Positions 236 through 23,913 of a stretch of 64,000 nt of DNA are shown here, piece after piece (within the stretch, counting starts at the first letter, position 1; every line of letters begins with the position of its first letter). The stretch covers positions 1-64,000 of the forward strand of contig JANQQC010000011.1 of assembly GCA_028285145.1 (NCBI GenBank), read 5' to 3'. Origin of the DNA: Hyphomonadaceae bacterium (lineage in GTDB: Bacteria > Pseudomonadota > Alphaproteobacteria > Caulobacterales > Hyphomonadaceae). The notes beneath the pieces are model-generated. The model was not told the origin of the DNA, ran no database searches, and saw only the letters and a list, made by a program, of their open reading frames with translations. The translations under genes were made by a program, and so were the position numbers.

Positions 236-1795
236 TCAAGCGTGAGCCGTCTCGACGGTTTCTTCAGCCTCCTCCCTAGCATCTTCCAGATGCGGCTCGC
301 CATATTTGTACTTGCCAAGGAAGAGCAGCGGGATGGTGAAGATAAAGAGCAATATGGCGGACTTGGTCAGCGTGAAGGCCCAGTCCTGCCCGACCAGAAG
401 CCCGGTCTCCAGCCCCATCAGGCTGAGGCCACGGCCATCGGCGATATTGGTCATGATCGATGGACCAAGCCCGGCCCCCAGTGCGAAGAAGCCATAGATG
501 GCCCCATAGATCGCCGAGTAGCTGCGCATGCCGAAATACTTCGACACCATATAGGCCATGAAGTCGTACTCGACCCCTGCCCCGAAGCCGATCATCAGGA
601 TCGCAATCGTCGCGGTCGTCGTCGACACATCCGGCTGGCCGAGCAGATGAAGCGCAATCGCGGGCGAGGCGAGAAACACGAAAGCAACGCCCGGGGCCCA
701 GAACCGGTCGATCAGATAGCCGCCAATGATGCGCCCGCCGAGAACGGCGAGCCCGGTCAATGTCGCAAGTCCGACCGCCTCGTCCATGCCGACACCAGTG
801 GTCGTCAACACGCGTTCAATGTTTGGAATGATCGCGCCGATGGCATAGGAGATCGGCACAAAGCAGACAGCGAGCAGCCAGAAGCGCCAGGTCTTCAGCG
901 CGTCAGCAAGAGAGAGCCCCGGCAGCTCGACCTGAACACCTGCCTCACGGACCGGCGGCGCAGTCTTGATGTTCATGAACAACATCATGCCAACCGGGAT
1001 CAGGATGAGGCCGCAGAACCCGTAGGCCATGATGTATTCGAGCCGCAAGCCGTTTGCCTCGACCAGCGGGCCAACCTGACGGAGCACGATCCAGATCAGG
1101 CCGACGACACCAATCAGGGAGATGGACAAGATCGGGACCTTCAGCGCGGTGACCTTGGCATCACGGGCCGGCTCATCGTCCAGATCCCGAAGCCCGAGCC
1201 AGACAATCGGCAAGGCGATCATCAACGGAAGGAGGCCCAGCATCACATAGGCCGAACGCCAGCCCGATCCGGCGATGAAGTGCCACTCCGGATTGGCCAC
1301 GATGAATTGCGCAAAGAATTTGGCGAGCGCGCCGAAGACGCCTGTTGCAATGAGGGCGATGCCGAGCGCAATCCCGCGGTTGCGGTCAAACCAGTTCGCG
1401 ACCGGCCGGGTGAAGGTGATCGGCAAGGTGCCGGCCCCGGCAAAGGCGAGGATCAGCCAGAGCACGATGTAGAGCGATTTCGATCCGGTGTTCAGCGCCA
1501 GCGCCATCATGGCCAGGCTGAACGTCACCACCGAGATCAGCGCGACGCGGCGCGCGCCGAAGCGTTCGGCCAGCAATCCAATGAGCGGGGATGCAGCAAA
1601 AGCGCCGAACGTGTAGATTGCCAGTGCGTTCAGAATGTCGCCCGGCGTCCAGCCGAGCGGCCCGAACTCCGCCAGAAGCGGCGGAATCATCACACCGATC
1701 GTGTAGAAGGGCAGCGGCGACAGGCCGAGGCCAACCCCGACAGCGGCGGCGCTCAACACCGGCCAACCGCGCGCAAATTCTCCAGTCCCGGCCAT
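236..1795 (-). CDS. MFS transporter
   Basis: A 519-residue major facilitator superfamily permease of the inner membrane with about 12 hydrophobic segments. The loop after the second segment carries the family-type basic motif (GLLAERFGARR, near residue 75), and the second half repeats the pattern (GGYLIDRF). A charged Glu-rich tail ends the protein. The start is supported by GGGAGGGC upstream of ATG. It is divergent from the amine oxidase gene, and the shared 94-bp gap holds a copy of the island's operator, so it likely imports a substrate or exports an intermediate of that pathway. The substrate cannot be read from sequence. Confidence 0.85.
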   Translation of the reverse strand: MAGTGEFARGWPVLSAAAVGVGLGLSPLPFYTIGVMIPPLLAEFGPLGWTPGDILNALAIYTFGAFAASPLIGLLAERFGARRVALISVVTFSLAMMALALNTGSKSLYIVLWLILAFAGAGTLPITFTRPVANWFDRNRGIALGIALIATGVFGALAKFFAQFIVANPEWHFIAGSGWRSAYVMLGLLPLMIALPIVWLGLRDLDDEPARDAKVTALKVPILSISLIGVVGLIWIVLRQVGPLVEANGLRLEYIMAYGFCGLILIPVGMMLFMNIKTAPPVREAGVQVELPGLSLADALKTWRFWLLAVCFVPISYAIGAIIPNIERVLTTTGVGMDEAVGLATLTGLAVLGGRIIGGYLIDRFWAPGVAFVFLASPAIALHLLGQPDVSTTTATIAILMIGFGAGVEYDFMAYMVSKYFGMRSYSAIYGAIYGFFALGAGLGPSIMTNIADGRGLSLMGLETGLLVGQDWAFTLTKSAILLFIFTIPLLFLGKYKYGEPHLEDAREEAEETVETAHA

Positions 1796-3287: not shown

Positions 3288-4316
3288 TTACTGATCGTCG
3301 AAAAGGCGATCCGGCGCGTAAGAACAACTGGCCTGCAACCAGCGCAGATTGAGGCCGACGCGTTCGCCGTCATACTCGGTCCAGGCATATGAGGTTGCGC
3401 GGTCGGAGCCGTCCTCATGGACATAAAGCGTCAGGGATGGCCGGTTCGATCCAGTCGGCCACTCAACCCGCCGGAGACGCAACATGATCTCTCTGGATGG
3501 CGTTTCGTCGGTGGTCAGAACAAGCTCGCCCTGCTGGTCGTGAATCCACCCACCCGTCCGGAAGTCCCAGTCCCGGTTGCCCTCGCCGGAGTCGCCATGC
3601 TCAGCGCCCCGCAGGACAGCCGTCCAGCATTCGAAGGGCCTGATCTTGCGCAGCTTGTGCGGCACGCCGGCCTTGTTGCCGAACACATACTCGCCATCGA
3701 CCGTTTCCGCGCGATCTGAAATCCAGATCTCATTTTCCGTCAGGACGAGATCGTCAGAAATGATGATCTCTTTTCCAAGCCGCCGGGACTCAAAACGACA
3801 GGCTCCCTCCTTCATATAACCAATGAATTGGTTGGCCTGTCGCTTCCAGAAGACATCACACCCCTCCCGCGCAGGAGCCGCTTCAGGCGTGAGACCCTCC
3901 AGAAGTGACGGATCCCTGTAGGCACCAACCAGCGCGTCTGTATCATCTGGACTGTGAATGCGCAGGCGGATCGCATCTTCATTCTCGTCCGCCTGGAAAA
4001 CGTAGATCCGCTGACGATAGACATCGGACGGATCGCCATCCTGAAACTGCTCGACATAGAAGACATGATCACCAAAGGCCGTGAGCTCGACCGGCCGGAA
4101 AACGGAATGGATACGCTCGTGCCGCTCATCTTCGGGCACGTCCAGGTCGGGCTCCCAGAACACCTGCAGGGAGTTATCGTAGCGCCCCGGAAACCATTCG
4201 AGGAAGAGCGCCAGATCCTTGTCCAGAACGCTTGCCGAAGGGGCCTGGCTCTCAGCAGGTGTTGGGGCCGACACACAAGCAGCCAGTCCAAACAGCCCAA
4301 TTAAAGCCGCACGCAT
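3288..4316 (-). CDS. Secreted CpcT/CpeT-like (phycobilin lyase family) lipoprotein
   Basis: A 342-residue protein with a signal peptide and lipobox LAAC (Cys14). The central ~200 residues resemble the CpcT/CpeT chromophore lyase family: WFPGRYDN near the start, a YVEQFQDGDPSDVYRQRIY stretch, GAYRDPSLLEGLTPE, then a GCDVFW...G...ACRF pair of cysteines. Cyanobacterial CpcT attaches phycobilins to phycobiliproteins and is about 200 residues; this one has about 130 extra C-terminal residues rich in beta-strand pattern. ATG at 4316 follows GGAG; upstream TTG/ATG codons at 4331, 4328 and 4322 are less likely. Its location points to ligand binding rather than protein chromophorylation. Family call good, function inferred. 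Confidence 0.75.
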   Translation of the reverse strand: MRAALIGLFGLAACVSAPTPAESQAPSASVLDKDLALFLEWFPGRYDNSLQVFWEPDLDVPEDERHERIHSVFRPVELTAFGDHVFYVEQFQDGDPSDVYRQRIYVFQADENEDAIRLRIHSPDDTDALVGAYRDPSLLEGLTPEAAPAREGCDVFWKRQANQFIGYMKEGACRFESRRLGKEIIISDDLVLTENEIWISDRAETVDGEYVFGNKAGVPHKLRKIRPFECWTAVLRGAEHGDSGEGNRDWDFRTGGWIHDQQGELVLTTDETPSREIMLRLRRVEWPTGSNRPSLTLYVHEDGSDRATSYAWTEYDGERVGLNLRWLQASCSYAPDRLFDDQ

Positions 4317-4330
4317 ATTCATCTCCATCA

Positions 4331-4360
4331 AAGAAAAACGCCGGCCCGAGGGCCGGCGTT
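4331..4360 (-). terminator. Rho-independent terminator after the first TonB receptor
   Basis: On the minus strand a 10-bp perfect stem (AACGCCGGCC / GGCCGGCGTT, loop of 4) is followed by a T-rich run. It falls right after the receptor stop codon and before the CpcT-like gene, so read-through to the latter is probably reduced or the latter has its own promoter. Confidence 0.8.
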
Positions 4361-4375
4361 TCGCACTGTCTGATC

Positions 4376-6847
4376 CTAGAAGCGGACTTTGAGTTCCGCG
4401 CCGTATTGCGGGCCGCGCCGCAGGGAACCAAAAAAGGCCCGAGGCACACTCGTCGAGGCACCGTCCGGAGCGGTGTTGATCGCCGCAAAGAAGTAAGGGC
4501 TTTGCAGCCAGCGTGTGGCGATCGCGATCGAGTCCTCGTCATTGAGGTTCTGGCCATAGAGGCTGAACGCCCATGTCTCCGTCTCGAAGCCCAAACGTGC
4601 ACCGAGAATTGTCGCATCGCCTGTTTCAGCCCGGTTGTGGACCTGCACAAACTTCGAACTCTCATAGGTAATATCGGATGAGGCAAAGAAGTCAGACCCC
4701 AGCGGACCAACCGCTGGTAGGTCAAACCGCAGGAAGGCACTCGCCTGATGCTCAGACGTAAGCGGGAATTTGTTCCCCGAAATGTCGCATGTAGCGGGGC
4801 CGGAGCCAGGGAAGTCTGCCGTAAAGTCCGTGCCAGTCCGGTTTGCCGGATCAGTGAGCAAACCGCCACCGGAGGTCAGTATCCACTCGTCGGCATCGCA
4901 GCCTTCGGTGAATTCGGTATCCGTCCAGGCATAGTTCGCACCGCCTGACCAAGTGTCGTTGAATGCACCAATCAGATCGAGTTCGACGCCGAGGATTTCG
5001 CCGGACCCTTGATTGGTCGCGATGGATGTAAGTGCATCTGTAGGTGTTCTAATTGCCTCGGTGAGTTGAACATTCGTTGCATCGGTAAAGAAGCCCGCTG
5101 CGGTGAGGTTCCAGTTTCCACCGAAGACCGGCGTCTTAAGACCGATTTCGAAGTTATCTGACTCTTCCTGTTCATAGGTTGGCCGACCGACGGCCTCCCC
5201 TGCACTCCCATTAATGCCACCCGGCTTCACACCCTGCGAGATAACGCCATAGATCGTACCGCCATTGTCCAACGAGTAATCAATCGTGAGACGCGGGGTG
5301 AAATTGTCGAAGCTTGCCGACGGGGTCGCGACCGACGTGTTATCCGTCTTTGTTTCTTCGGCGTACCGGCCCTCAAGCGTTGCCGTCAGCTTATCAGAGA
5401 AATCATACTCAACCAGACCGAATATGGCCTCGTTTCGAATGGTCGTTTTGCCGGTCGGCGTATTGCTGCCGTCCAGATCGTTGAAGGTAATGTCACTATC
5501 ATTTATTAGTGAGTCGTAGAGATAAGCACCAATCGCCCAACGCAATTGGTCATCCTCCGGTGAAGAGAGCTTGAGCTCGACGCTGTAGTCTTCAATGTCA
5601 TCGCGAGTGGTATTTGCAAAGAACGCTTCTGGATTCAGGAAGGCCGGCGCGACGAACCAGTTGACCGAAGAGTGGTCACTGTCGAAGCCCTGCTTAAGCA
5701 TCTCGTCACGATACCCACCGAGAAATTTCAGAACATAGCCTGATCCACCGATGTCATAATCAGCAATAATGCTGGTCAGAATCTGCTCCCGCTCAACGCC
5801 GTCGAACGCGGTGCCATCTGCAAGGCTATAAATCGGCGTGATGAAGCTTGATCCTTCCGGGACACCGTCCACCAGATTAGGCACACCATCAGCATCAGGG
5901 CCGGTGTTCAGGGCGACCTGACCGGGATCAATCACACCACAAAAATACTGGTTGGTATTGGCGCTGATCGGTGTTGGGAACGGCAAGCCACCCTGGAAAG
6001 CGGAGATGCTCGAGAGCGAACGATAGCCCGGTTCACAATTGTTGTCGGCGGCCGGTTGAAGGAACAATGCCAGCGGCCCATCATCGTCTTGGGTGTAACT
6101 CGTACGCAGACGAACATCAAAGTTTGATGTCGGCTCAAAGTCCAGAACACCAGAAATGCTGAATGTCGACTCGTCGCCAACCAGTTCTTCTGTCACCGCG
6201 TTGCGGAACTCGCCGCCATACTTGTAGCCGCGATAGCTCAGCCGGCCCGTCAGCACGTCACCAATAATTGGACCCGACATGAAGGCGGACAGATCCATCG
6301 TTTCGTTATTGCCAGCCCGGACGCGGCCGCCAGCCTCAAACTCTTCGGTACCACCCTGCGTGATGAAATTGATCGCACCTGCATAGGTGTTCCGACCGTA
6401 GAGCGCAGACTGCGGGCCTTTGATAACCTCAACCCGCTCAAGATCGTTCGGATCCATGTTCTGGATGGATCCGGAGAAGTATACGCCATCGACAAAATAC
6501 GCCGTGCCGGATTCAACACCGAACTGTACACCAGCCAGAACATTGGACTGGCCCCGAATGACTGGGCGTTCCGTTGTCCGCCCAAAAGCCTTCGAGAAGG
6601 AAAGACCCGGTGTGAACCGCGCAATATCATCGACAGATTGAAGCTGAAGATTTTCGATCTGGTCTTCGCCAAATGCCGACACAGCAACCGGCGCGTCGAG
6701 CAGCGTCTCTTCCTTGCGACGCGACGTGATAACGATCGTGTTCTGGCGGAGCGTGTCTTCGTCGCCCTCTTCCTGTGCAAATGCCGGCGTGCTGTAGGCG
6801 GTCACCGCCATTGCAGCCGCTCCGGCCATCAAACTGAATTTCCTCAT
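4376..6847 (-). CDS. TonB-dependent receptor (first)
   Basis: An 823-residue outer-membrane receptor with signal peptide (cleavage after AFAQ, about residue 25), a TonB-box-like TIVITSRR segment, a plug domain (DAPVAVSAFGEDQIENL ... GPQSALYGRNTYAGAINFIT), and a long 22-strand barrel ending in the typical terminal Phe (LKVRF). No SusD partner or FecI/FecR genes adjoin it, so it belongs to the stand-alone receptors typical of alphaproteobacterial heterotrophs. ATG at 6847 follows GGGGAGAG. An operator copy lies 46 bp upstream, and a strong terminator follows the gene. It probably admits the bulky substrate of the island. Confidence 0.9.
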   Translation of the reverse strand: MRKFSLMAGAAAMAVTAYSTPAFAQEEGDEDTLRQNTIVITSRRKEETLLDAPVAVSAFGEDQIENLQLQSVDDIARFTPGLSFSKAFGRTTERPVIRGQSNVLAGVQFGVESGTAYFVDGVYFSGSIQNMDPNDLERVEVIKGPQSALYGRNTYAGAINFITQGGTEEFEAGGRVRAGNNETMDLSAFMSGPIIGDVLTGRLSYRGYKYGGEFRNAVTEELVGDESTFSISGVLDFEPTSNFDVRLRTSYTQDDDGPLALFLQPAADNNCEPGYRSLSSISAFQGGLPFPTPISANTNQYFCGVIDPGQVALNTGPDADGVPNLVDGVPEGSSFITPIYSLADGTAFDGVEREQILTSIIADYDIGGSGYVLKFLGGYRDEMLKQGFDSDHSSVNWFVAPAFLNPEAFFANTTRDDIEDYSVELKLSSPEDDQLRWAIGAYLYDSLINDSDITFNDLDGSNTPTGKTTIRNEAIFGLVEYDFSDKLTATLEGRYAEETKTDNTSVATPSASFDNFTPRLTIDYSLDNGGTIYGVISQGVKPGGINGSAGEAVGRPTYEQEESDNFEIGLKTPVFGGNWNLTAAGFFTDATNVQLTEAIRTPTDALTSIATNQGSGEILGVELDLIGAFNDTWSGGANYAWTDTEFTEGCDADEWILTSGGGLLTDPANRTGTDFTADFPGSGPATCDISGNKFPLTSEHQASAFLRFDLPAVGPLGSDFFASSDITYESSKFVQVHNRAETGDATILGARLGFETETWAFSLYGQNLNDEDSIAIATRWLQSPYFFAAINTAPDGASTSVPRAFFGSLRRGPQYGAELKVRF

Positions 6848-6909: not shown

Positions 6910-7010
6910 AAAGGACAGCGTTTCTGAACTTATTGCAAGTCCCGAATCCGAACCGCTGAGTATTGCAACCAAAGATGTGTCGTATTCGGCACACCAACCA
7001 GGATACCCGG

Positions 7011-7517
7011 ATGACCGACACGCTCACCGCCAATGAATTGAAAGCCCTGATGCCAACACTGGCGCGTCATGAAGGTGTCTGGGAGGGTGTCTACCGGTTC
7101 TATGACCCGCAAGGAACCAAGATCGATGAGCATGAGTCCCGCCTGATCTGCCGGTTCCCAGATGAGGGCCACCCCTATCATCAAACCAATCTCTATCGCT
7201 GGGCCGATGGCAAGCGTGAGACACGCGACTTCCCCGCTGGCGTCGAGAATGGCCGTCTGAAATGGGATAATGAGTTCATCAATGGCTGGGCCTGCGATGT
7301 GGCACTGGATGATTTCGGCCGCACGACAATGCTGAACTGGACCCGCACGGGCGAGCCGGACCTTTATCTCTATGAGATGATCCAGCTCTCCGATGATGGG
7401 CAGGCCCGCGCCCGTATCTGGCAATGGTTCAAGGAAGATCGGCTATTCCAGCGCACCCTTGTCGACGAACGGCGCGTCAGCGATGACTGGCGCAGCTATG
7501 AAGGTAAAGAGTTCTAG
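7011..7517 (+). CDS. Small lipocalin/calycin-like protein (DUF3598-like)
   Basis: A 168-residue protein without signal peptide. An early HEGVWEGVYRFYD motif, the strand-rich pattern, YHQTNLYRW and repeated Trp/Tyr at strand ends resemble DUF3598-type lipocalin-like proteins, a calycin fold that also includes bilin lyases of the CpcS group. ATG at 7011 follows AGGATA; in-frame codons upstream lack a ribosome site. It is divergent from the TonB receptor across an operator and overlaps the 3' end of the convergent VOC gene by 4 bp. It may bind a hydrophobic or tetrapyrrole-like intermediate in the cytoplasm; the ligand is a guess and the family call is moderate. Confidence 0.6.
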   Translation: MTDTLTANELKALMPTLARHEGVWEGVYRFYDPQGTKIDEHESRLICRFPDEGHPYHQTNLYRWADGKRETRDFPAGVENGRLKWDNEFINGWACDVALDDFGRTTMLNWTRTGEPDLYLYEMIQLSDDGQARARIWQWFKEDRLFQRTLVDERRVSDDWRSYEGKEF

Positions 7518-8420: not shown

Positions 8421-9323
8421 TTACCGTTCGGGCACTTCGATCTCGCCTTTGCGAACGCCATCAAAGTACTTCCAGCTCGTCATGTTGTCGCGCGGATCGC
8501 CCTCGGGCGGCGGGCCGACATATTCAGGATAATTGGTGCGGATCTCATTCTTCATGGTCTCCGACATATCATCCCAGCTGGCGAGCTTTGCACCGGCCGT
8601 ATGGACCCAGAACATGCCTTCGCGGCCATTCATCTTCATCCATGGCAACCAGTCAGACATGCGCGACCAGCCGACTGTGACTTTCGCCGTCGTCGTGTCT
8701 GGATCGAGCAGATCCTCTGTGCGGCCGAAGAAGTTGAACAGCTCGGTCGCATGATAGGTGCCGCCAATCTCGGCCTGATAAGGCCCACCAAGCGGGTTCG
8801 GATACCAAAGCGGGAAGGTTGAGCGCAGCCACCACTGGCCATTGCTGATCTCGCCGCTCCAGGTCGAAGGCTGGCCATCACGGCCAATCTCATATGCCTC
8901 GAAATTCACCGGATCGTTGGCGACGTGCAGCACATCCACCGTCTCGCCGGACCATGGATTGTCCCAGGTCGCGAGTGGCTCGCCTGTTTCCTTGTCGAGG
9001 TAGAGAAGGATTTCGCGCGAGACCAGCGCGTAACCATTGCCTCTCGTCTCATCCGTGATGGAAGAACAGGCCCGGACATTCATGCCTTCAACGTCGAAGA
9101 GATGGACATCCTTCTCGCCCTGCCGGCGGGAAAAAGCCTGACCGTGCCACCAGTAGACAATGGGCTCATTATCGACGGTTGAGCACTGGACCTTGCGATT
9201 GATCATCAGCGTGTCGGCAGCATCGGTCGGATCGAGTTGATCCCCCTGCGCCGTGGCAAGGCTCGCACACCCTGCAAGAGAAAGCGCCGCCAGCGCCCCC
9301 ATGGTCTTCAATAAGCCAGCCAT
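8421..9323 (-). CDS. DUF1838 family lipoprotein
   Basis: A 300-residue protein with signal peptide and lipobox LAGC (Cys19). The rest matches the DUF1838 pattern as I recall it: KVQCSTVDNEP, the YWWHGQAFSRRQGE segment, YLDKETGEPLATWDNPWSGE, and a Trp/Tyr-rich C-terminal half. No catalytic role is established for the family. The gene has its own operator copy 15 bp upstream, the only perfect 22-bp palindrome of the set, and its own terminator, so it is an independently controlled unit. Envelope location suggests handling of the imported ligand. Confidence 0.75.
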   Translation of the reverse strand: MAGLLKTMGALAALSLAGCASLATAQGDQLDPTDAADTLMINRKVQCSTVDNEPIVYWWHGQAFSRRQGEKDVHLFDVEGMNVRACSSITDETRGNGYALVSREILLYLDKETGEPLATWDNPWSGETVDVLHVANDPVNFEAYEIGRDGQPSTWSGEISNGQWWLRSTFPLWYPNPLGGPYQAEIGGTYHATELFNFFGRTEDLLDPDTTTAKVTVGWSRMSDWLPWMKMNGREGMFWVHTAGAKLASWDDMSETMKNEIRTNYPEYVGPPPEGDPRDNMTSWKYFDGVRKGEIEVPER

Positions 9324-10817: not shown

Positions 10818-11777
10818 CTACTCCGCCGCCGCAGGCACCGGCGCGCCCTTGAAGCCAAGCGGCAGGCCAGCCTTCGGGGTAAACCCGTAAAGTTCCTCGT
10901 CCGGCAGCGCCTTCGCGACGATCTCACGGCAAGCCATCAACGCATCCAGATCAATGCCTGTATTCACGCCCATGGATTCGAACATGAAGACGAGATCTTC
11001 CGTCACAATGTTTCCGCTCGCACCCGGCGCTGTCGGACAGCCGCCGAGTCCTCCAAGGGATGAATCAAAAGTGGTAATCCCCTCCTCATAGGCGGCGAGC
11101 GCGTTCGCCAGACCCAGCCCCCGCGTATTGTGCAGGTGAACACCGGTCAGGTTCTTCGCGCCGACTTCGCCGCGGACTGTACGGATCAGCCGCTTGATGG
11201 AAGCTGGATCGCCATAACCGGTCGTGTCCGAGAGGCCGACCTCGTCGCAGCCTGCCTCCATCAACCGTGTGGCGAGGCGCAAGATCAGGTCCTCAGGTAT
11301 GGCACCTTCAAGCGTGCAACCGAATGCCGTCGAGAGCGAGCCTTCAAAATGCGGGCGCTGGTCTTCCGGTAGCTCATCAAGCATGTCGGAGATCGCTTTG
11401 GCTTCCTCGATCACCTGATCATGCGTGCGGCGAATGTTGCGCAGGGAATGCGTCTCAGAAACTGAAAGCGGCAACGTGATCTTATGCGCCCCAGCCTCGA
11501 CAGCCATACGAGCCCCCTTCAGATTTGGCACGAGCACAGCAACATCAAGGCCGGGGACCGTCAGCGCAAACGCGACAACGTCTGCCGTGTCGGCCATCTG
11601 AGGCAGCAGTTTCGGTGAGACAAAAGAGCCTACCTCAATCTCCGTGACCCCGGCTGCGGCCTCTGCGGCGATCCACGCCGTCTTTGATGCCAGAGGCATT
11701 GTTTCTGCGCAGTTCTGGAGGCCATCCCGGGGCCCCACTTCGCTGATCAATACGTCAGGTTTTGCCATTTTGGTCAT
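10818..11777 (-). CDS. HMG-CoA lyase family protein (candidate alkylmalyl-CoA lyase)
   Basis: A 319-residue TIM-barrel lyase of the DRE-TIM/HMGL-like family. Motifs: EVGPRDGLQN near residue 13, STAFGC, the metal-binding HLHNTRGLGLAN, and the C-terminal loop GGLGGCPTAPGASGN containing the catalytic-type Cys. HMG-CoA lyase splits 3-hydroxy-3-methylglutaryl-CoA to acetyl-CoA and acetoacetate; relatives split other 3-hydroxyacyl-CoAs. Divergent from a CoA-transferase across one operator copy, and near a LeuCD-type dehydratase, it may split an alkylmalyl-CoA rather than take part in leucine breakdown. No isovaleryl-CoA or methylcrotonyl-CoA genes are nearby. Confidence 0.85.
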   Translation of the reverse strand: MTKMAKPDVLISEVGPRDGLQNCAETMPLASKTAWIAAEAAAGVTEIEVGSFVSPKLLPQMADTADVVAFALTVPGLDVAVLVPNLKGARMAVEAGAHKITLPLSVSETHSLRNIRRTHDQVIEEAKAISDMLDELPEDQRPHFEGSLSTAFGCTLEGAIPEDLILRLATRLMEAGCDEVGLSDTTGYGDPASIKRLIRTVRGEVGAKNLTGVHLHNTRGLGLANALAAYEEGITTFDSSLGGLGGCPTAPGASGNIVTEDLVFMFESMGVNTGIDLDALMACREIVAKALPDEELYGFTPKAGLPLGFKGAPVPAAAE

Positions 11778-13085: not shown

Positions 13086-13700
13086 TCAGCCCTGATAAAT
13101 CCAGGGTCGAACCTCTCGATCCCTGCTCAGGAATTCCGAAATCTCGCCGGACATGGATTGCGTCAATCCAATCGGATCAAGCCCGCCAACCAGAAGGCGT
13201 TTGGCATATGCGTCAATCTCAAACGTATACTCATCACCACCGCAATCTATCACCTGCCCCGCCAGATCGATGCGGACTTCCACACCGGACGCAGTACGAG
13301 CAGCGATCGCCTCGACATCGTTCGATAACAGAGCAACGGGCAACACACCGTTACGCACGCAGTTGTCCCGGAAGATGGCACCGAAGGATTTGGCGATGAC
13401 GGCGCGGATGCCGAATTCAGCCAGCGCCCATACCGCATGCTCACGAGAGGATCCGCAGCCGAAATTCTCTCCGACCACGAGAATACTCGCACCGTTGAAG
13501 GGCACTTTGTTCAGCACGAAATCAGGATGCAGCTCGCGGCTTTCCGCAGACACGTATCGCCAGCCGGCAAACAGCCCGACCGACAGACCGTCCCGGCTGA
13601 CCGCCTTCATTTCGCGTGACGGAATGATCTGGTCGGTGTCGACATTGTCGAGCATCATCGGCGCGGCGACGCCTTCATGTATTTTGAATGGCTCGACCAT
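13086..13700 (-). CDS. LeuD-like dehydratase small subunit
   Basis: A 204-residue swivelling-domain subunit of the isopropylmalate dehydratase/aconitase family. Motifs: DNVDTDQIIPSR near residue 18 and the substrate-loop GENFGCGSSREHA near 75. It pairs with the large subunit upstream; the start overlaps that gene's stop, so they are translationally coupled. No leuA or leuB is near and the pair is under the island's operator, so a catabolic hydratase role (alkylmaleate or citraconate to alkylmalate) is more likely than leucine synthesis. This is inference from context. Confidence 0.88.
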   Translation of the reverse strand: MVEPFKIHEGVAAPMMLDNVDTDQIIPSREMKAVSRDGLSVGLFAGWRYVSAESRELHPDFVLNKVPFNGASILVVGENFGCGSSREHAVWALAEFGIRAVIAKSFGAIFRDNCVRNGVLPVALLSNDVEAIAARTASGVEVRIDLAGQVIDCGGDEYTFEIDAYAKRLLVGGLDPIGLTQSMSGEISEFLSRDREVRPWIYQG

Positions 13701-15094
13701 CAGGACACCGTGTCCACCGCCGCAAAGGCGCGCGCATCAGCGATCCGACCGGCGACAGCGCTCGCAGCAACCGTCGCCGGGCTCGCCAGGTGGGTGCGCA
13801 CGCCGGGCCCCTGCCGCCCCTCGAAGTTCCGGTTGGTGGAAGACACAATGCGTGAGCCCGGCAGGAACGTCTCGCCGCCTGCATAGAAACACATCGCGCA
13901 GCCGGGCGAGCCCCACTCAAATCCAGCTTCCTTGAAAACCTCATCCAGCCCCTCGGCCTCCGCAGCGCGCTGCACAGATTGCGATCCGGGAACACAAATA
14001 GCCCGGACGCCGTCCGCAATGCGCCGCCCCCGGAGAACTTCACCGGCCGCCCGAAGATCAGACAATCGTCCGTTCGTACATGATCCGATGAAGACCCCAT
14101 CAATCGGCAGCTCATCCAGCTTCGCTCCTGCATCTAAGCCCATATAGGACAAGGCTGCTGGCCGGGCATTTGATGGCACCCGCGCTGTCACCGCAACGGC
14201 CTCCTCAGGGCTCGTCCCCCACGAAACCGTCGGCGCGATCGCATTCGCGTCTATCTCGATTTCCTCGTCGAAGACTGCATCATCATCCGTATAAAGATTA
14301 CGCCATGAAGCTTCAGCGCGCGCCTGCAAGTCATTGCCCGGCGCATATGACCGCCCCCTCAGATAAGCGAAAACCTTATCATCGGGCGCGATCACCGCTG
14401 TGAATGCAGCGAATTCAACGGCGAGATTGCAAAGCGTCAGGCGCGCTTCGATATCCATAGCGTCAACGGCAGAGCCCGCGAACTCGATGGCCGCGCGGCT
14501 CCCGCCAGCCGCACCATGTAGAGAAATCAGGTGAAGCGCCGCATCCTTCGCCGTCACGCCCGCGCCAAGGCGGCCATTAAACCAGACGCGTTTCTGCGCC
14601 GGCTTCATCACTCGCAGCGCTCCTGTTGCGAGCGCGTGTTCCGCCTCACTGGACCCTATACCCCAGGCGAGCGCACCGAGCGCACCAAGGCTGCAGGTGT
14701 GACTGTCAGGGCAGACAATGCTCGCACCGGGCATAGCAAGGCCGAGCTCCGGCGCGACGACATGGACAATGCCCTGCCGCGTGTCATCCGTATCAATGAG
14801 GTGAAGGCCCGCCGCCTTCGCCATTGCGCGTGTTTCAGTGATGAACGTCTCTCCGCCGGGCGAGCGGGATTCGTCTCGCCCGCGCCCTGCCCTGAACGAA
14901 ACGATATGATCCATGATGGCAAACGCGCGCTCAGGCGCGAGCACCGACCGCCCGGCTTCCGCCAGCGACTTCAGGGCGACGCCGCCCGTGCGCTCGTGCA
15001 GCATCACACGATCAATTGCGATCAGGTCCGCCCCGTCGCCTGCATCGGCAATCCGGTGCGCCTGCCATAGCTTATCGAAGATCGTCTGTGCCAT
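13700..15094 (-). CDS. LeuC-like dehydratase large subunit
   Basis: A 464-residue iron-sulfur hydro-lyase subunit, usual length for LeuC. It keeps cluster cysteines in GSCTNGR and GCAMC, VCPDSHTCSLGALGALAWGIG, and a C-terminal SSTNRNFEGRQG. The GCAMCFYAGGE loop departs from the biosynthetic GCSMCLGMN form, hinting at a different substrate. The start ATG at 15094 lies 14 bp from an operator copy. With the small subunit it would add or remove water on a branched malate/maleate; known catabolic relatives include dimethylmaleate hydratase and citraconate hydratases. Confidence 0.88.
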   Translation of the reverse strand: MAQTIFDKLWQAHRIADAGDGADLIAIDRVMLHERTGGVALKSLAEAGRSVLAPERAFAIMDHIVSFRAGRGRDESRSPGGETFITETRAMAKAAGLHLIDTDDTRQGIVHVVAPELGLAMPGASIVCPDSHTCSLGALGALAWGIGSSEAEHALATGALRVMKPAQKRVWFNGRLGAGVTAKDAALHLISLHGAAGGSRAAIEFAGSAVDAMDIEARLTLCNLAVEFAAFTAVIAPDDKVFAYLRGRSYAPGNDLQARAEASWRNLYTDDDAVFDEEIEIDANAIAPTVSWGTSPEEAVAVTARVPSNARPAALSYMGLDAGAKLDELPIDGVFIGSCTNGRLSDLRAAGEVLRGRRIADGVRAICVPGSQSVQRAAEAEGLDEVFKEAGFEWGSPGCAMCFYAGGETFLPGSRIVSSTNRNFEGRQGPGVRTHLASPATVAASAVAGRIADARAFAAVDTVS

Positions 15095-20266: not shown

Positions 20267-20962
20267 ATGACCGACTATCCAACCGAGCCGACGATGGCGG
20301 TCTCCGACAAGACCGCACGTGAAATCTTCGAGGATGTCCGGGCCAACCCCGCCCGCGCCCGGTTCGGGTTTGGGGAGAAAATCGCCATCGTGAATGTCGA
20401 TCCACAACAGGCCTACACGCGGCCAGACCTCTTCAAGACCGCCTACATCACCGACCCGCGCCAGATTGAACACATCAACGAAATCTCCAAACGCGCCCGG
20501 GCAAAGAGCCTTCCAGTTGTCTGGACTCATGTCGCCTATATGGAGAATGCTGCAGATGCCGGCGTCTGGGGCACCCGGACAGACACGCCTGACAGCCTGC
20601 AAAACATCAAGTCAGGGTCCGAGCGAAACGCCTTCGATGACCGCCTTGAAATCGATCCCAGCGTTGATGCGGTTTACGAGAAGCGGATGCCGAGCGCGTT
20701 CTTTGAAACCCGGCTCGCGTCTTTCCTCACATGGCACAAAGTCGACACCGTTATCGTTACTGGTGGCTCCACGTCCGGCTGCGTGCGCGCCACCGCCGTG
20801 GACAGCCTGTCGCACGGATATCGCACCATTGTTCCCATGGAGTGCGTCGCCGACAAGCATGAGAGCTATCACTTCGCCAACCTCACAGACCTTCAGCTGA
20901 AGTACGCAGACGTGGTGGAGGTTCAGGAAGTCTATGACTGGATCGAGGCCTATCGCGGATGA
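20267..20962 (+). CDS. Isochorismatase-family cysteine hydrolase (candidate half-amidase)
   Basis: A 231-residue cysteine hydrolase with the complete triad: Asp45 (NVDPQQAY), Lys139 (YEKRMPSAF) and Cys172 (STSGCVRATA, with the cis-peptide turn). The family includes maleamate amidohydrolase, ureidoacrylate and N-carbamoylsarcosine amidases. It is first in a five-gene operon and overlaps the next gene by ATGA. Since the next two genes resemble allantoinase/cyclic-imide hydrolases, a half-amide hydrolase releasing ammonia and a dicarboxylate is the most economical role. Confidence 0.88.
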   Translation: MTDYPTEPTMAVSDKTAREIFEDVRANPARARFGFGEKIAIVNVDPQQAYTRPDLFKTAYITDPRQIEHINEISKRARAKSLPVVWTHVAYMENAADAGVWGTRTDTPDSLQNIKSGSERNAFDDRLEIDPSVDAVYEKRMPSAFFETRLASFLTWHKVDTVIVTGGSTSGCVRATAVDSLSHGYRTIVPMECVADKHESYHFANLTDLQLKYADVVEVQEVYDWIEAYRG

Positions 20963-21903
20963 CACGACCCGATCCCAACCTTTATGACTACTGGCCCTAT
21001 CAGGGCCGCCCGAAGATCGAATGGCCCGGCGGCAAAAGGCTCGCCTTCTGGATCGCGCCCAATATCGAATACTATGAATTCGACCCGCCCCCGAACCCGC
21101 AGCGCCAGCCCTGGCCGCGCCCTAACCCCGACATAATCGGCTACTCCCAGCGCGACTGGGGCAACAGGATCGGCCACTGGCGGTTGATGGACCTGCTCGA
21201 CAAGTACGGAATGCGCGGTTCGATCTCACTGTCGATCGGACTGATCGACCACCACCCCGAAATCATCGAAGCCTGCAAGGCGCGCAACTGGGAGTTCTTC
21301 TCCCACGGCATCTATAATACCCGCTATTCCTACGGCATGGACGAAGCGCAGGAACGCGCCGTCATCGAGGACTCGATCAAGTCCGTTCAGGACGCCACAG
21401 GCGACCGCATCCGTGGCTATCTCGCCCCTGCCCTCACCCATACAGAGCGAACGCTGGACCTCATTGCCGAGTATGATTTCTGGTATTCCTGCGACCTCTT
21501 TCAGGATGACCAGCCTCAACCCCTGAAGACAAGGACGGGCAAGCTCGTCTCGATGCCCTATTCGCTCGAAGTGAATGATGTCATCACCTACTCCGTGCAG
21601 GGATGGTCGCCGCAGCGCTATACAGACATCCTGATCCGCCACTTCGATCAACTTCTTGAAGAAGGCGAAGAGTCCGGCACCGTGATGTGCATTCCGCTTC
21701 ACGCCTACCTTGTGAGCCAGCCCCACCGCCTGCGCGTCTTCGAAGACGCCCTAAAACACATCGCTGCCCACCGGGACGATATCTGGATCACGACAGGAGC
21801 TGAGATCGCCGAACACTTCCGCGAGCACTACTGGGACCAGAGCCTTGCCGACATCAAGGTACGCGGCGTTACTACAGGAGGAACCGGCTTTGCCCCTGCC
21901 TGA
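20959..21903 (+). CDS. Polysaccharide-deacetylase-fold protein, PuuE/cyclic-imide hydrolase type (1)
   Basis: A 314-residue NodB-like barrel protein. SQRDWGNRIGHWRLMDLLDKYGMRGSISLS, HPEIIEACKARNWEFFSHG and GYLAPALTHTERTLDLIAEYDFWYSCD are the hallmarks of the PuuE allantoinase and imidase branch rather than sugar deacetylases; the usual TFDD metal motif is absent. Enzymes of this branch open cyclic amides or imides. The start overlaps the amidase stop, and the stop lies inside the start of the second paralogue. No signal peptide: cytoplasmic. Confidence 0.85.
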   Translation: MTRPDPNLYDYWPYQGRPKIEWPGGKRLAFWIAPNIEYYEFDPPPNPQRQPWPRPNPDIIGYSQRDWGNRIGHWRLMDLLDKYGMRGSISLSIGLIDHHPEIIEACKARNWEFFSHGIYNTRYSYGMDEAQERAVIEDSIKSVQDATGDRIRGYLAPALTHTERTLDLIAEYDFWYSCDLFQDDQPQPLKTRTGKLVSMPYSLEVNDVITYSVQGWSPQRYTDILIRHFDQLLEEGEESGTVMCIPLHAYLVSQPHRLRVFEDALKHIAAHRDDIWITTGAEIAEHFREHYWDQSLADIKVRGVTTGGTGFAPA

Positions 21904-22801
21904 TGATTACCTTACCTACCCTCATCGCTCCCATGGCATGGATCAGGACCTCTATGACTGGGACCCGGCCGATCGCCGCGCGCCTGTTCAACTGGCCTCC
22001 GGCGTAAAGGCGATGGCCACCATCGTTATCCCGCTCGAATTCTTTCCGCTCAACCCGCCGGGCGAGCCATTCAAGCATCCCGGAGCAATGAAGACGCCTT
22101 ATCCGGACCTGCGCCATTTCACGACGCGCGACTATGGGAATCGTGTCGGCGTGTACCGGCTGCTGCGTGCACTGGAGACCGTTAGCCTGAAAGCCACCTT
22201 CGCGGTCAACGCAGAGATCGCCCGGCGCTACCCGCCGCTGATCGAAGCTGTCCGCACGGCCGGGCACGAAATCGCCGCCTATGGCGTCTCGACCGCGCAC
22301 ATTCATCATGCCGGCCTGTCCGGGGCCGAAGAACTCGCACTCATCGAAAACACCCGCAAGGCCTTTCCTAATGCGCGGACATGGATGAGCCCGGCCCGTA
22401 ACCAGTCCTTCAAGACGCTGGATCTCATCCGGCAGTCGGGCTTCGACATCTGCCTCGACTGGGAAATGGACCAAAGGCCGCTCGCCATGGGAACCAAAGC
22501 CGGTGAGATACATGCGCTACCCCTCATGAATGAGCTCGGGGATTTCAAGCTTCTGCTCGACCGATCCCAGAGTGAGGACGAATGGGCCGACCAGATTCTG
22601 GAAGCGGCACGGTTCCATATCGACGAACATGAGCAGCGTGGCGCACAATGCTTTGCCTTCACGCTCACGCCCTACGCCGCCGGACAACCTTTCCGCATGC
22701 ACGCTGTTCGCCGCATCCTTGATGGCCTTGCCAACATGGATGGCCTCGCCGTGGCGACTGCCGCTGAAACCGTGGATGCCTTCTCGGAGACAAAGACATG
22801 A
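21890..22801 (+). CDS. Polysaccharide-deacetylase-fold protein, PuuE/cyclic-imide hydrolase type (2)
   Basis: A 303-residue paralogue of the preceding protein (TTRDYGNRVGVYRLLRALE, AVRTAGHEIAAYGVS, TWMSPARNQSFKTLDLIRQSGFDICLDWEMD). The start is judged to be TTG at 21890, preceded at 8 bases by AGGAGG, the best ribosome site in this operon; it overlaps the previous gene by 14 bp. A start at 21845 has no such site. It differs from copy 1 in several loop residues (for example AYGVS in place of SHGIY), so the two may be a heteromer or act on different rings. It overlaps the next gene by ATGA. Confidence 0.85.
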   Translation: MPLPDDYLTYPHRSHGMDQDLYDWDPADRRAPVQLASGVKAMATIVIPLEFFPLNPPGEPFKHPGAMKTPYPDLRHFTTRDYGNRVGVYRLLRALETVSLKATFAVNAEIARRYPPLIEAVRTAGHEIAAYGVSTAHIHHAGLSGAEELALIENTRKAFPNARTWMSPARNQSFKTLDLIRQSGFDICLDWEMDQRPLAMGTKAGEIHALPLMNELGDFKLLLDRSQSEDEWADQILEAARFHIDEHEQRGAQCFAFTLTPYAAGQPFRMHAVRRILDGLANMDGLAVATAAETVDAFSETKT

Positions 22802-23913
22802 ACAGGCGCGAACTTCTTCTCGCTGCGACCGCGACCGCTCTCGCAGCCCCAGCCTTCGCACAGGACACACCGGGCCTCCGCTATACCGCCATCGCGCTCC
22901 AGACGGTCTGCGATGCGGTCAATCAGGATTCAACTGTTGAAGATGCTCACGCCCGCATGGACGCGGCCATCGCTCGCGTCCGAGGCCAGATCGGCGCATC
23001 GCGCGGATTCCTGAAAGGCTTTAACGGCTACGACACAAAACTCGTCGTCCTGCCGGAATACTGGATGACAGGTTTCCCCCTTGGAGAGTCCCGGGAGGAA
23101 TGGCAGGCCAAAGCCGCGATTGCCATGGACGGCCCGTTTGCCGAGAAGCTCGCCGGTCTCGCCCAGACCTTCGGAATCTATCTGTGCTCGAACCATTACG
23201 AGACCGACCCGAACTTCCCGAACCTCTATTTCCAGTCCAACGTCATCTACAGCCCGTCCGGCGACACAGTGCTGCGGTATCGGCGGATGATTTCGCTCTA
23301 CACGCCGAGCCCCTATGATGTTTGGGACAAGTACCTCGATACATATGGTGCCGATGCCGTTTTCCCGGTCGCCGACACCGAAATAGGCGTACTGGCAACC
23401 ATAGCGAGCGAGGAAATCCTGTATCCGGAGATCGCGCGTATGACGGCTTTCAAGGGTGCAGAGGTGTTCCTGCACCCGACCTCGGAAGTCGGCGCGCCGG
23501 GCCTGACGCCCAAGCACATCGCCAAGAAGGCCCGCGCCATCGAGAACATCGCCTATCTCGTCTCGGCAAACTCAGCCGGGATCATCGGAACCCCCGTCCC
23601 TGCCGCGTCGACCGATGCCATGTCCATCATACTGGACTGGTATGGACGCACGCTCGCCGAGTCGGGAACGGGTGAGACCCTGAACGCCAATGCCGTGCTG
23701 GATATTGGCGCGCTGCGCGAGACGCGCCGCAAGACCGGTATGACAAATACACTGTCACGCCTTCCAAACGATGCCTTCGAGACAGCCTATGCGCAGGCCG
23801 ATCACGCCCCCGCCAATCGCTCGCCAGCCAATCGAATGATGTCTCGCGCCGAGGCCATCGCCTCCCAGCAAACCGTCATTGACCGTCTCGTGGAAGATGG
23901 CGTTCTGAAGTGA
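22798..23913 (+). CDS. Secreted nitrilase-like protein with altered catalytic triad
   Basis: A 371-residue carbon-nitrogen hydrolase-fold protein with a Tat-like signal (NRRELLLAATATALAAPAFA). The fold is clear (VVLPEYWMTGFP with Glu87; IYSPSGDTVLRYRRM; GAEVFLHPTSEVG). Two catalytic positions look changed: the Lys of the usual RK motif is Arg (162/163), and the Cys after IGVL is replaced in TIASEEILYPE, where Ser204 aligns best. It may be a non-catalytic binding protein, or use another chemistry. It overlaps the second deacetylase-fold gene by 4 bp; a cytoplasmic-to-envelope switch inside one operon is notable. Confidence 0.8.
   Translation: MNRRELLLAATATALAAPAFAQDTPGLRYTAIALQTVCDAVNQDSTVEDAHARMDAAIARVRGQIGASRGFLKGFNGYDTKLVVLPEYWMTGFPLGESREEWQAKAAIAMDGPFAEKLAGLAQTFGIYLCSNHYETDPNFPNLYFQSNVIYSPSGDTVLRYRRMISLYTPSPYDVWDKYLDTYGADAVFPVADTEIGVLATIASEEILYPEIARMTAFKGAEVFLHPTSEVGAPGLTPKHIAKKARAIENIAYLVSANSAGIIGTPVPAASTDAMSIILDWYGRTLAESGTGETLNANAVLDIGALRETRRKTGMTNTLSRLPNDAFETAYAQADHAPANRSPANRMMSRAEAIASQQTVIDRLVEDGVLK

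Follow-up and report, generated by a model that had tools for sequence, protein, structure and literature searches.

An exported two-domain CpeT/CpcT-family protein is a candidate carrier for an imide/pyrrole catabolic gene cluster in a heterotrophic bacterium

A gene on the reverse strand of the window (the whole 64,000-nucleotide stretch of DNA analysed here) encodes a CpeT/CpcT-family protein that carries an export signal and a second, conserved C-terminal domain, and that lies in a conserved neighbourhood comprising a TonB-dependent receptor and recognisable families of catabolic enzymes. We tentatively favour, at a probability of about 0.38, the reading that this protein may be an exported carrier of a bilin- or pyrrole-type ligand serving an imide/N-heterocycle catabolic system, as its sequence and surroundings suggest. 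The first-pass annotation had proposed a bilin-handling role outside phycobiliprotein assembly, and this interpretation is partly supported: the family, the export signal, the extra domain and the setting without phycobiliproteins all stand, and the role is narrowed from bilin handling to putative carriage of a ligand for a cluster of imide/pyrrole catabolic genes.

The predicted open reading frame was confirmed on the reverse strand, with the following parts.

3288–4316, reverse strand: exported CpeT/CpcT-family lipoprotein with a C-terminal domain, 342 aa (PF06206, lipobox, Shine-Dalgarno sequence)
3645–4202, reverse strand: CpeT domain (PF06206 match)
3291–3635, reverse strand: C-terminal domain without a Pfam match (Pfam search; pairing of C232 and C333 across 64 homologues)

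Translation from the ATG at 4316, which has GGAG six bases 5' of it, gives a product of 342 residues; another in-frame ATG further upstream, at 4322, abuts the GGAG, and residue numbers used here are counted from it (P0001, 344 aa). A Pfam profile search matched residues 41–226 to PF06206 (CpeT) with an E value of 1.6e-34 and 119.8 bits against a curated cut-off of 21, as the first-pass annotation had anticipated in calling the protein CpcT/CpeT-like, and among PDB entries CpcT (4o4o) was matched by sequence at 2e-7 over residues 35–222. Judged from these matches, membership of the CpeT superfamily is solid. AlphaFold runs with one and two input sequences gave mean pLDDT values of 36 and 38, respectively, too low for a usable model of the calycin beta-barrel expected of the family. 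Two cysteine residues of the CpeT domain, C155 and C175, are kept in all 81 aligned sequences, including the cytosolic cyanobacterial proteins, and therefore mark the family as a whole, not the exported proteins. Export is indicated by the lipobox LAAC (residues 13–16) at the end of the signal sequence. The proposed lipoprotein nature holds for the window protein but varies among its relatives, two close ones (L027 and L043) and a more distant one (L018) having ordinary signal peptides, and lipidation was rejected as a defining trait of the group.

The 81 aligned sequences were collected by searches in the same bacterial family, class and phylum and in two further families, together with one relative from a Woeseiaceae metagenome-assembled genome (MAG); four of them are cyanobacterial or cyanophage. 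The Woeseiaceae protein (58% identity) was the sole relative from a scan of genome contigs. Members of the CpeT family were found in 8 of 105 genomes of the window's own bacterial family, which corrects the notion of a family limited to cyanobacteria; one protein from a genome of this family (L003/L015, G017:C253) contains two tandem CpeT-like domains. The extra domain comprises residues 230–344, about 115 residues and so slightly shorter than the 130 first estimated, and gave no Pfam match even at an E value of 10. As it is carried by 64 of the 81 homologues, in Alpha- and Gammaproteobacteria, a private addition of the window strain is ruled out. Its best-kept positions include W233, G264, G265, L283, L297, L299, Y312, W314, R321 and Q330. 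C232 and C333 are retained or lost as a pair over the 64 homologues, with C/C in 32 and G/L in 31, the pattern expected of a disulphide, and the two residues are likely to form one in the proteins that have them. Aligning the C-terminal with the N-terminal domain in hhalign gave a probability of 43.6% at 7% identity; a gappy tail is among the aligned columns, and the result is too poor to interpret.

The TonB-dependent receptor that had been noted beside the CpeT gene is directly adjacent to it, upstream and on the same strand, and further genes with homologues at other CpeT loci lie on both sides.

236–1795, reverse strand: MFS transporter, with homologues at about 45–50% in L027, L174 and L158
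1904–3283, forward strand: exported flavin amine oxidase, twin-arginine-like, with a lipobox, resembling monoamine oxidase (MAO) and nicotine oxidase (PF01593, 2.8e-45; start approximate)
4335–4362, reverse strand: terminator-like hairpin of 12 pairs separating the TonB receptor gene from CpeT
4376–6847, reverse strand: TonB-dependent receptor
6963–7517, forward strand: DUF3598_N-type protein with relatives in L041 and L174 (PF12204, 8.6e-5)
8421–9323, reverse strand: exported DUF1838 protein, of which L027 has a 63% identical homologue next to its CpeT gene (PF08894, 2.7e-68)

About six lineages have CpeT close to a TonB receptor, an exported flavin amine oxidase or both. The receptor neighbours CpeT in the window, the G744 group, G853, G865 and G279, and lies within a few genes of it in G034; G279 has CpeT and TonB without the amine oxidase. 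The G744 group matches the window at 53–57% for CpeT, 40% for TonB and 46% for the amine oxidase where one was found. The Woeseiaceae locus (L027) shares with the window the DUF1838 protein (63%), a carbon-nitrogen hydrolase (50%), the MFS transporter and small genes, and the CpeT locus of G034 has a DUF1838 protein, a DUF1330 protein and a cytochrome c nearby. Among the papers searched, none tied CpcT to TonB clusters, and DUF1838 came up in just one, on an unrelated subject. As a side observation, small DUF3598-type proteins are present at both CpeT loci of the window genome (6963–7517, where the PF12204 match is weak, and L041:7901–8335) and in a G279 cluster (L174:3242).

A set of imide-type genes lies further along the window (20267–23913), with the LeuD/LeuC-like, CaiB-type and HMGL genes in between.

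10818–11777, reverse strand: HMG-CoA-lyase-like (HMGL) protein, with a 70% homologue in L158
11856–13085, forward strand: CaiB-type CoA-transferase, with a 64% homologue in L158 (from its sequence and similarity to other CaiB genes)
13086–15094, reverse strand: LeuD/LeuC-like aconitase pair, a candidate alkylmaleate hydratase (PF00694, PF00330)
20267–20962, forward strand: isochorismatase-fold amidase of the N-carbamoylsarcosine/maleamate amidohydrolase type (8.8e-29; 3ot4/3uao, 1.9e-20; D/K/C triad motifs readable)
20959–21903, forward strand: first PuuE-like polysaccharide-deacetylase-family protein, a candidate imidase
21845–22801, forward strand: second PuuE-like polysaccharide-deacetylase-family protein (start uncertain)
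22798–23913, forward strand: carbon-nitrogen hydrolase of the nitrilase/amidase superfamily, with a 50% homologue in L027

The first-pass annotation had the imide-type genes lying beside CpeT; in the window they are 16–20 kb away (20267–23913), whereas in G853 and G865 they are indeed adjacent. The link itself recurs in other lineages and is stronger than could be known from the window: the imide module lies within 20 kb of CpeT in four lineages (the window, G853, G865 and G279, the last at about 18 kb), and the chance of four out of nine CpeT loci lying near such a module is about 6e-9, a rough order of magnitude that treats the loci as independent. In G853 and G865 the amidase and deacetylases close to CpeT are accompanied by a lyase of the methylisocitrate/2,3-dimethylmalate family (1zlp, 1e-58; 3fa3, 2e-43). 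The best match to the G865 lyase in the window genome reaches 24% only, with no close one, and HMGL and CaiB probably replace it in the window, as in a second G279 cluster (L158). The nearest structure in the PDB to the LeuC/LeuD-like pair is an isopropylmalate/citramalate isomerase (5e-59). A second LeuC-like gene elsewhere in the genome (L181, G000:C47:25349–26743) contains one in-frame TGA, which could stem from faulty assembly or mean that the gene is broken.

The first deacetylase is present in 50 of 289 genomes of the class, and 17 neighbourhoods showed the amidase, the two deacetylases, the LeuC-like hydratase and the lyase as a recurrent group, from which CpeT is mostly absent. The module is common in Alphaproteobacteria and occurs without CpeT at a dozen or so other loci of the class; loci that have it, most of them lacking CpeT, include L111, L126, L157, L160–L163, L166–L168, L172 and L173. 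This module, in which a NicF-like amidase, the PuuE-like deacetylase pair and a LeuCD-like hydratase are joined by a lyase of the methylisocitrate/dimethylmalate type or a CoA-dependent substitute, matches no described pathway known to us. From the enzyme families we infer an order that would fit conversion of an imide via maleamate, maleate and malate to pyruvate and an acid, with dialkylmaleimides as putative substrates. The end steps of nicotinate catabolism, in which the maleamate amidase NicF is followed by dimethylmaleate hydratase and dimethylmalate lyase, draw on these enzyme families in a matching sequence of steps. Unlike in nicotinate catabolism, PuuE-like deacetylases hold the place of an imidase here, a function proposed for them by analogy, and in the window the lyase is replaced by CaiB and HMGL. 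Methyl ethyl maleimide, methyl vinyl maleimide, hematinic acid and dipyrroles arise when chlorophyll and heme are oxidised, and leaves and sediments are reported to contain maleimides and hematinic acid (PMC7318184).

Taken together, the protein would be a CpeT/CpcT calycin-family member, either membrane-anchored or located in the periplasm, that has left phycobiliprotein assembly. Within the periplasm and close to its TonB receptor, it would most likely bind a bilin-like compound or another pyrrole/pyrrolinone. Periplasmic enzymes, among them the amine oxidase, the DUF1838 protein and the amidase, would receive the ligand from it, and the C-terminal domain would provide docking or a second binding site. 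Products could then enter the cytoplasmic module, in which the PuuE-like imidases would open the imide, the NicF-like amidase would remove ammonia, the LeuCD-like hydratase would add water and a lyase (of the methylisocitrate/dimethylmalate type, or CaiB plus HMGL in the window) would give pyruvate and an acid.

The same catabolic system may instead act on an alkaloid or other N-heterocycle, with the calycin fold reused for another small molecule, and this is a serious if still doubtful rival. The PDB matches of the window amine oxidase are MAO and other amine oxidases; being most like MAO and nicotine oxidases, it fits an alkaloid substrate equally well. The amidase is likewise nearest to N-carbamoylsarcosine amidohydrolases and then to the 3ot4/3uao protein, which we take to be NicF, a maleamate amidohydrolase. 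Elsewhere, the core module occurs with what read as ABC- and TRAP-type transporters, suggesting a small substrate; the TonB receptors, on the other hand, imply a large or scarce one. The CpeT versions in these clusters also retain more of the CpcT-invariant positions than other exported homologues do. Of 31 positions invariant in the four cyanobacterial or cyanophage CpcT/CpeT sequences, the window protein keeps 20, among the highest of the exported homologues and equalled by the G853 protein, which is also in an imide cluster; the G744 group keeps 17–18, other two-domain homologues mostly 9–18 and the f217 group 6–10. These counts are in line with a retained binding pocket in the cluster versions and are no proof of a ligand. 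To our knowledge, bilins (for CpcT and CpeT) are the only established ligands of the family.

It is less probable, and on balance unlikely, that the protein is a general envelope protein of the CpeT fold (structural, signalling or lipid-binding) and its neighbourhood a horizontally transferred mixed catabolic island. Homologues with the same C-terminal domain but without catabolic neighbours do exist, as second copies in the G744 group and in f217 gammaproteobacteria, so that the role of the domain, and of the exported fold, may be more general. In a tree of the CpeT domain, weakly supported in this part, the window protein sits closer to the Woeseiaceae protein (68% over the domain) than to relatives from the same order; the placement suggests horizontal transfer, although the MAG contig may be misbinned. 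However, the association with a TonB receptor, amine oxidase or DUF1838 protein recurs in several lineages at 25–60% identity, whereas drift alone would have scattered it.

As regards bilins, profile searches of the genome detected neither a phycobiliprotein (PF00502) nor a heme oxygenase of the PF01126 type, the only heme oxygenase profile used, in agreement with the heterotrophic, non-phycobiliprotein setting described in the first-pass annotation; a bilin ligand, if any, would therefore have to be imported. A true bilin lyase loading chromophore onto an exported or imported apoprotein would accord with PF06206 membership, yet the window protein lacks the phycobiliprotein acceptor, the PF01126-dependent bilin supply and the cytoplasmic location of a T-type phycobiliprotein lyase, its lipobox signal directing it out of the cytoplasm, and such a function is very unlikely. 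The homologous domain, C155/C175 and many invariant positions are common to the window protein and CpcT, the lyase for the phycocyanin beta-Cys153/155 bilin (PDB 4o4o, 4o4s), from which the window protein differs in its export, its extra C-terminal domain, its TonB/catabolic context and a genome without phycobiliprotein. Cyanobacterial and cyanophage CpeT proteins match it by tblastn over the CpeT domain at about 24–30% identity, but are cytosolic and single-domain, and the cyanobacterial genes adjoin phycobilisome linker and lyase genes. The plant protein AT5G51020 (CRUMPLED LEAF) is a eukaryotic chloroplast-envelope protein with no known relation to catabolic genes. It is listed as a plant homologue of CpcT (PMC2408579) and, like the window protein, falls outside phycobilisome assembly.

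We know of no bacterial route from the pyrrolic fragments of chlorophyll to central metabolism. If the carrier reading is true, the cluster would supply concrete gene candidates for bacterial feeding on chlorophyll, heme or phycobilin debris; chlorophyll turnover amounts to about 10^12 kg per year (PMC7318184). A bolder and improbable extension is that some Alpha- and Gammaproteobacteria would import linear tetrapyrroles or dipyrrole fragments via the TonB receptor and the two-domain CpeT carrier, oxidise them to dialkylmaleimides and convert these to pyruvate. In any case, a family name that refers to chromophore lyases is a misleading annotation for its exported, two-domain branch.

The window genome encodes a second exported CpeT protein (L041, 203 aa) without the extra domain. 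Its operon (L041:517–16775, G000:C17) contains genes for a PuuE-like protein, an amidase, a CoA ligase, two MmgE/PrpD proteins, two CaiB proteins, an acyl-CoA dehydrogenase, a mesaconyl-CoA-hydratase-like protein and a CitE-like lyase. A stretch syntenic with this operon adjoins CpeT and TonB in G279 (L029), in which several transposase- or recombinase-like genes, as read from their sequences, are found immediately upstream of CpeT (L028:7347–15039).
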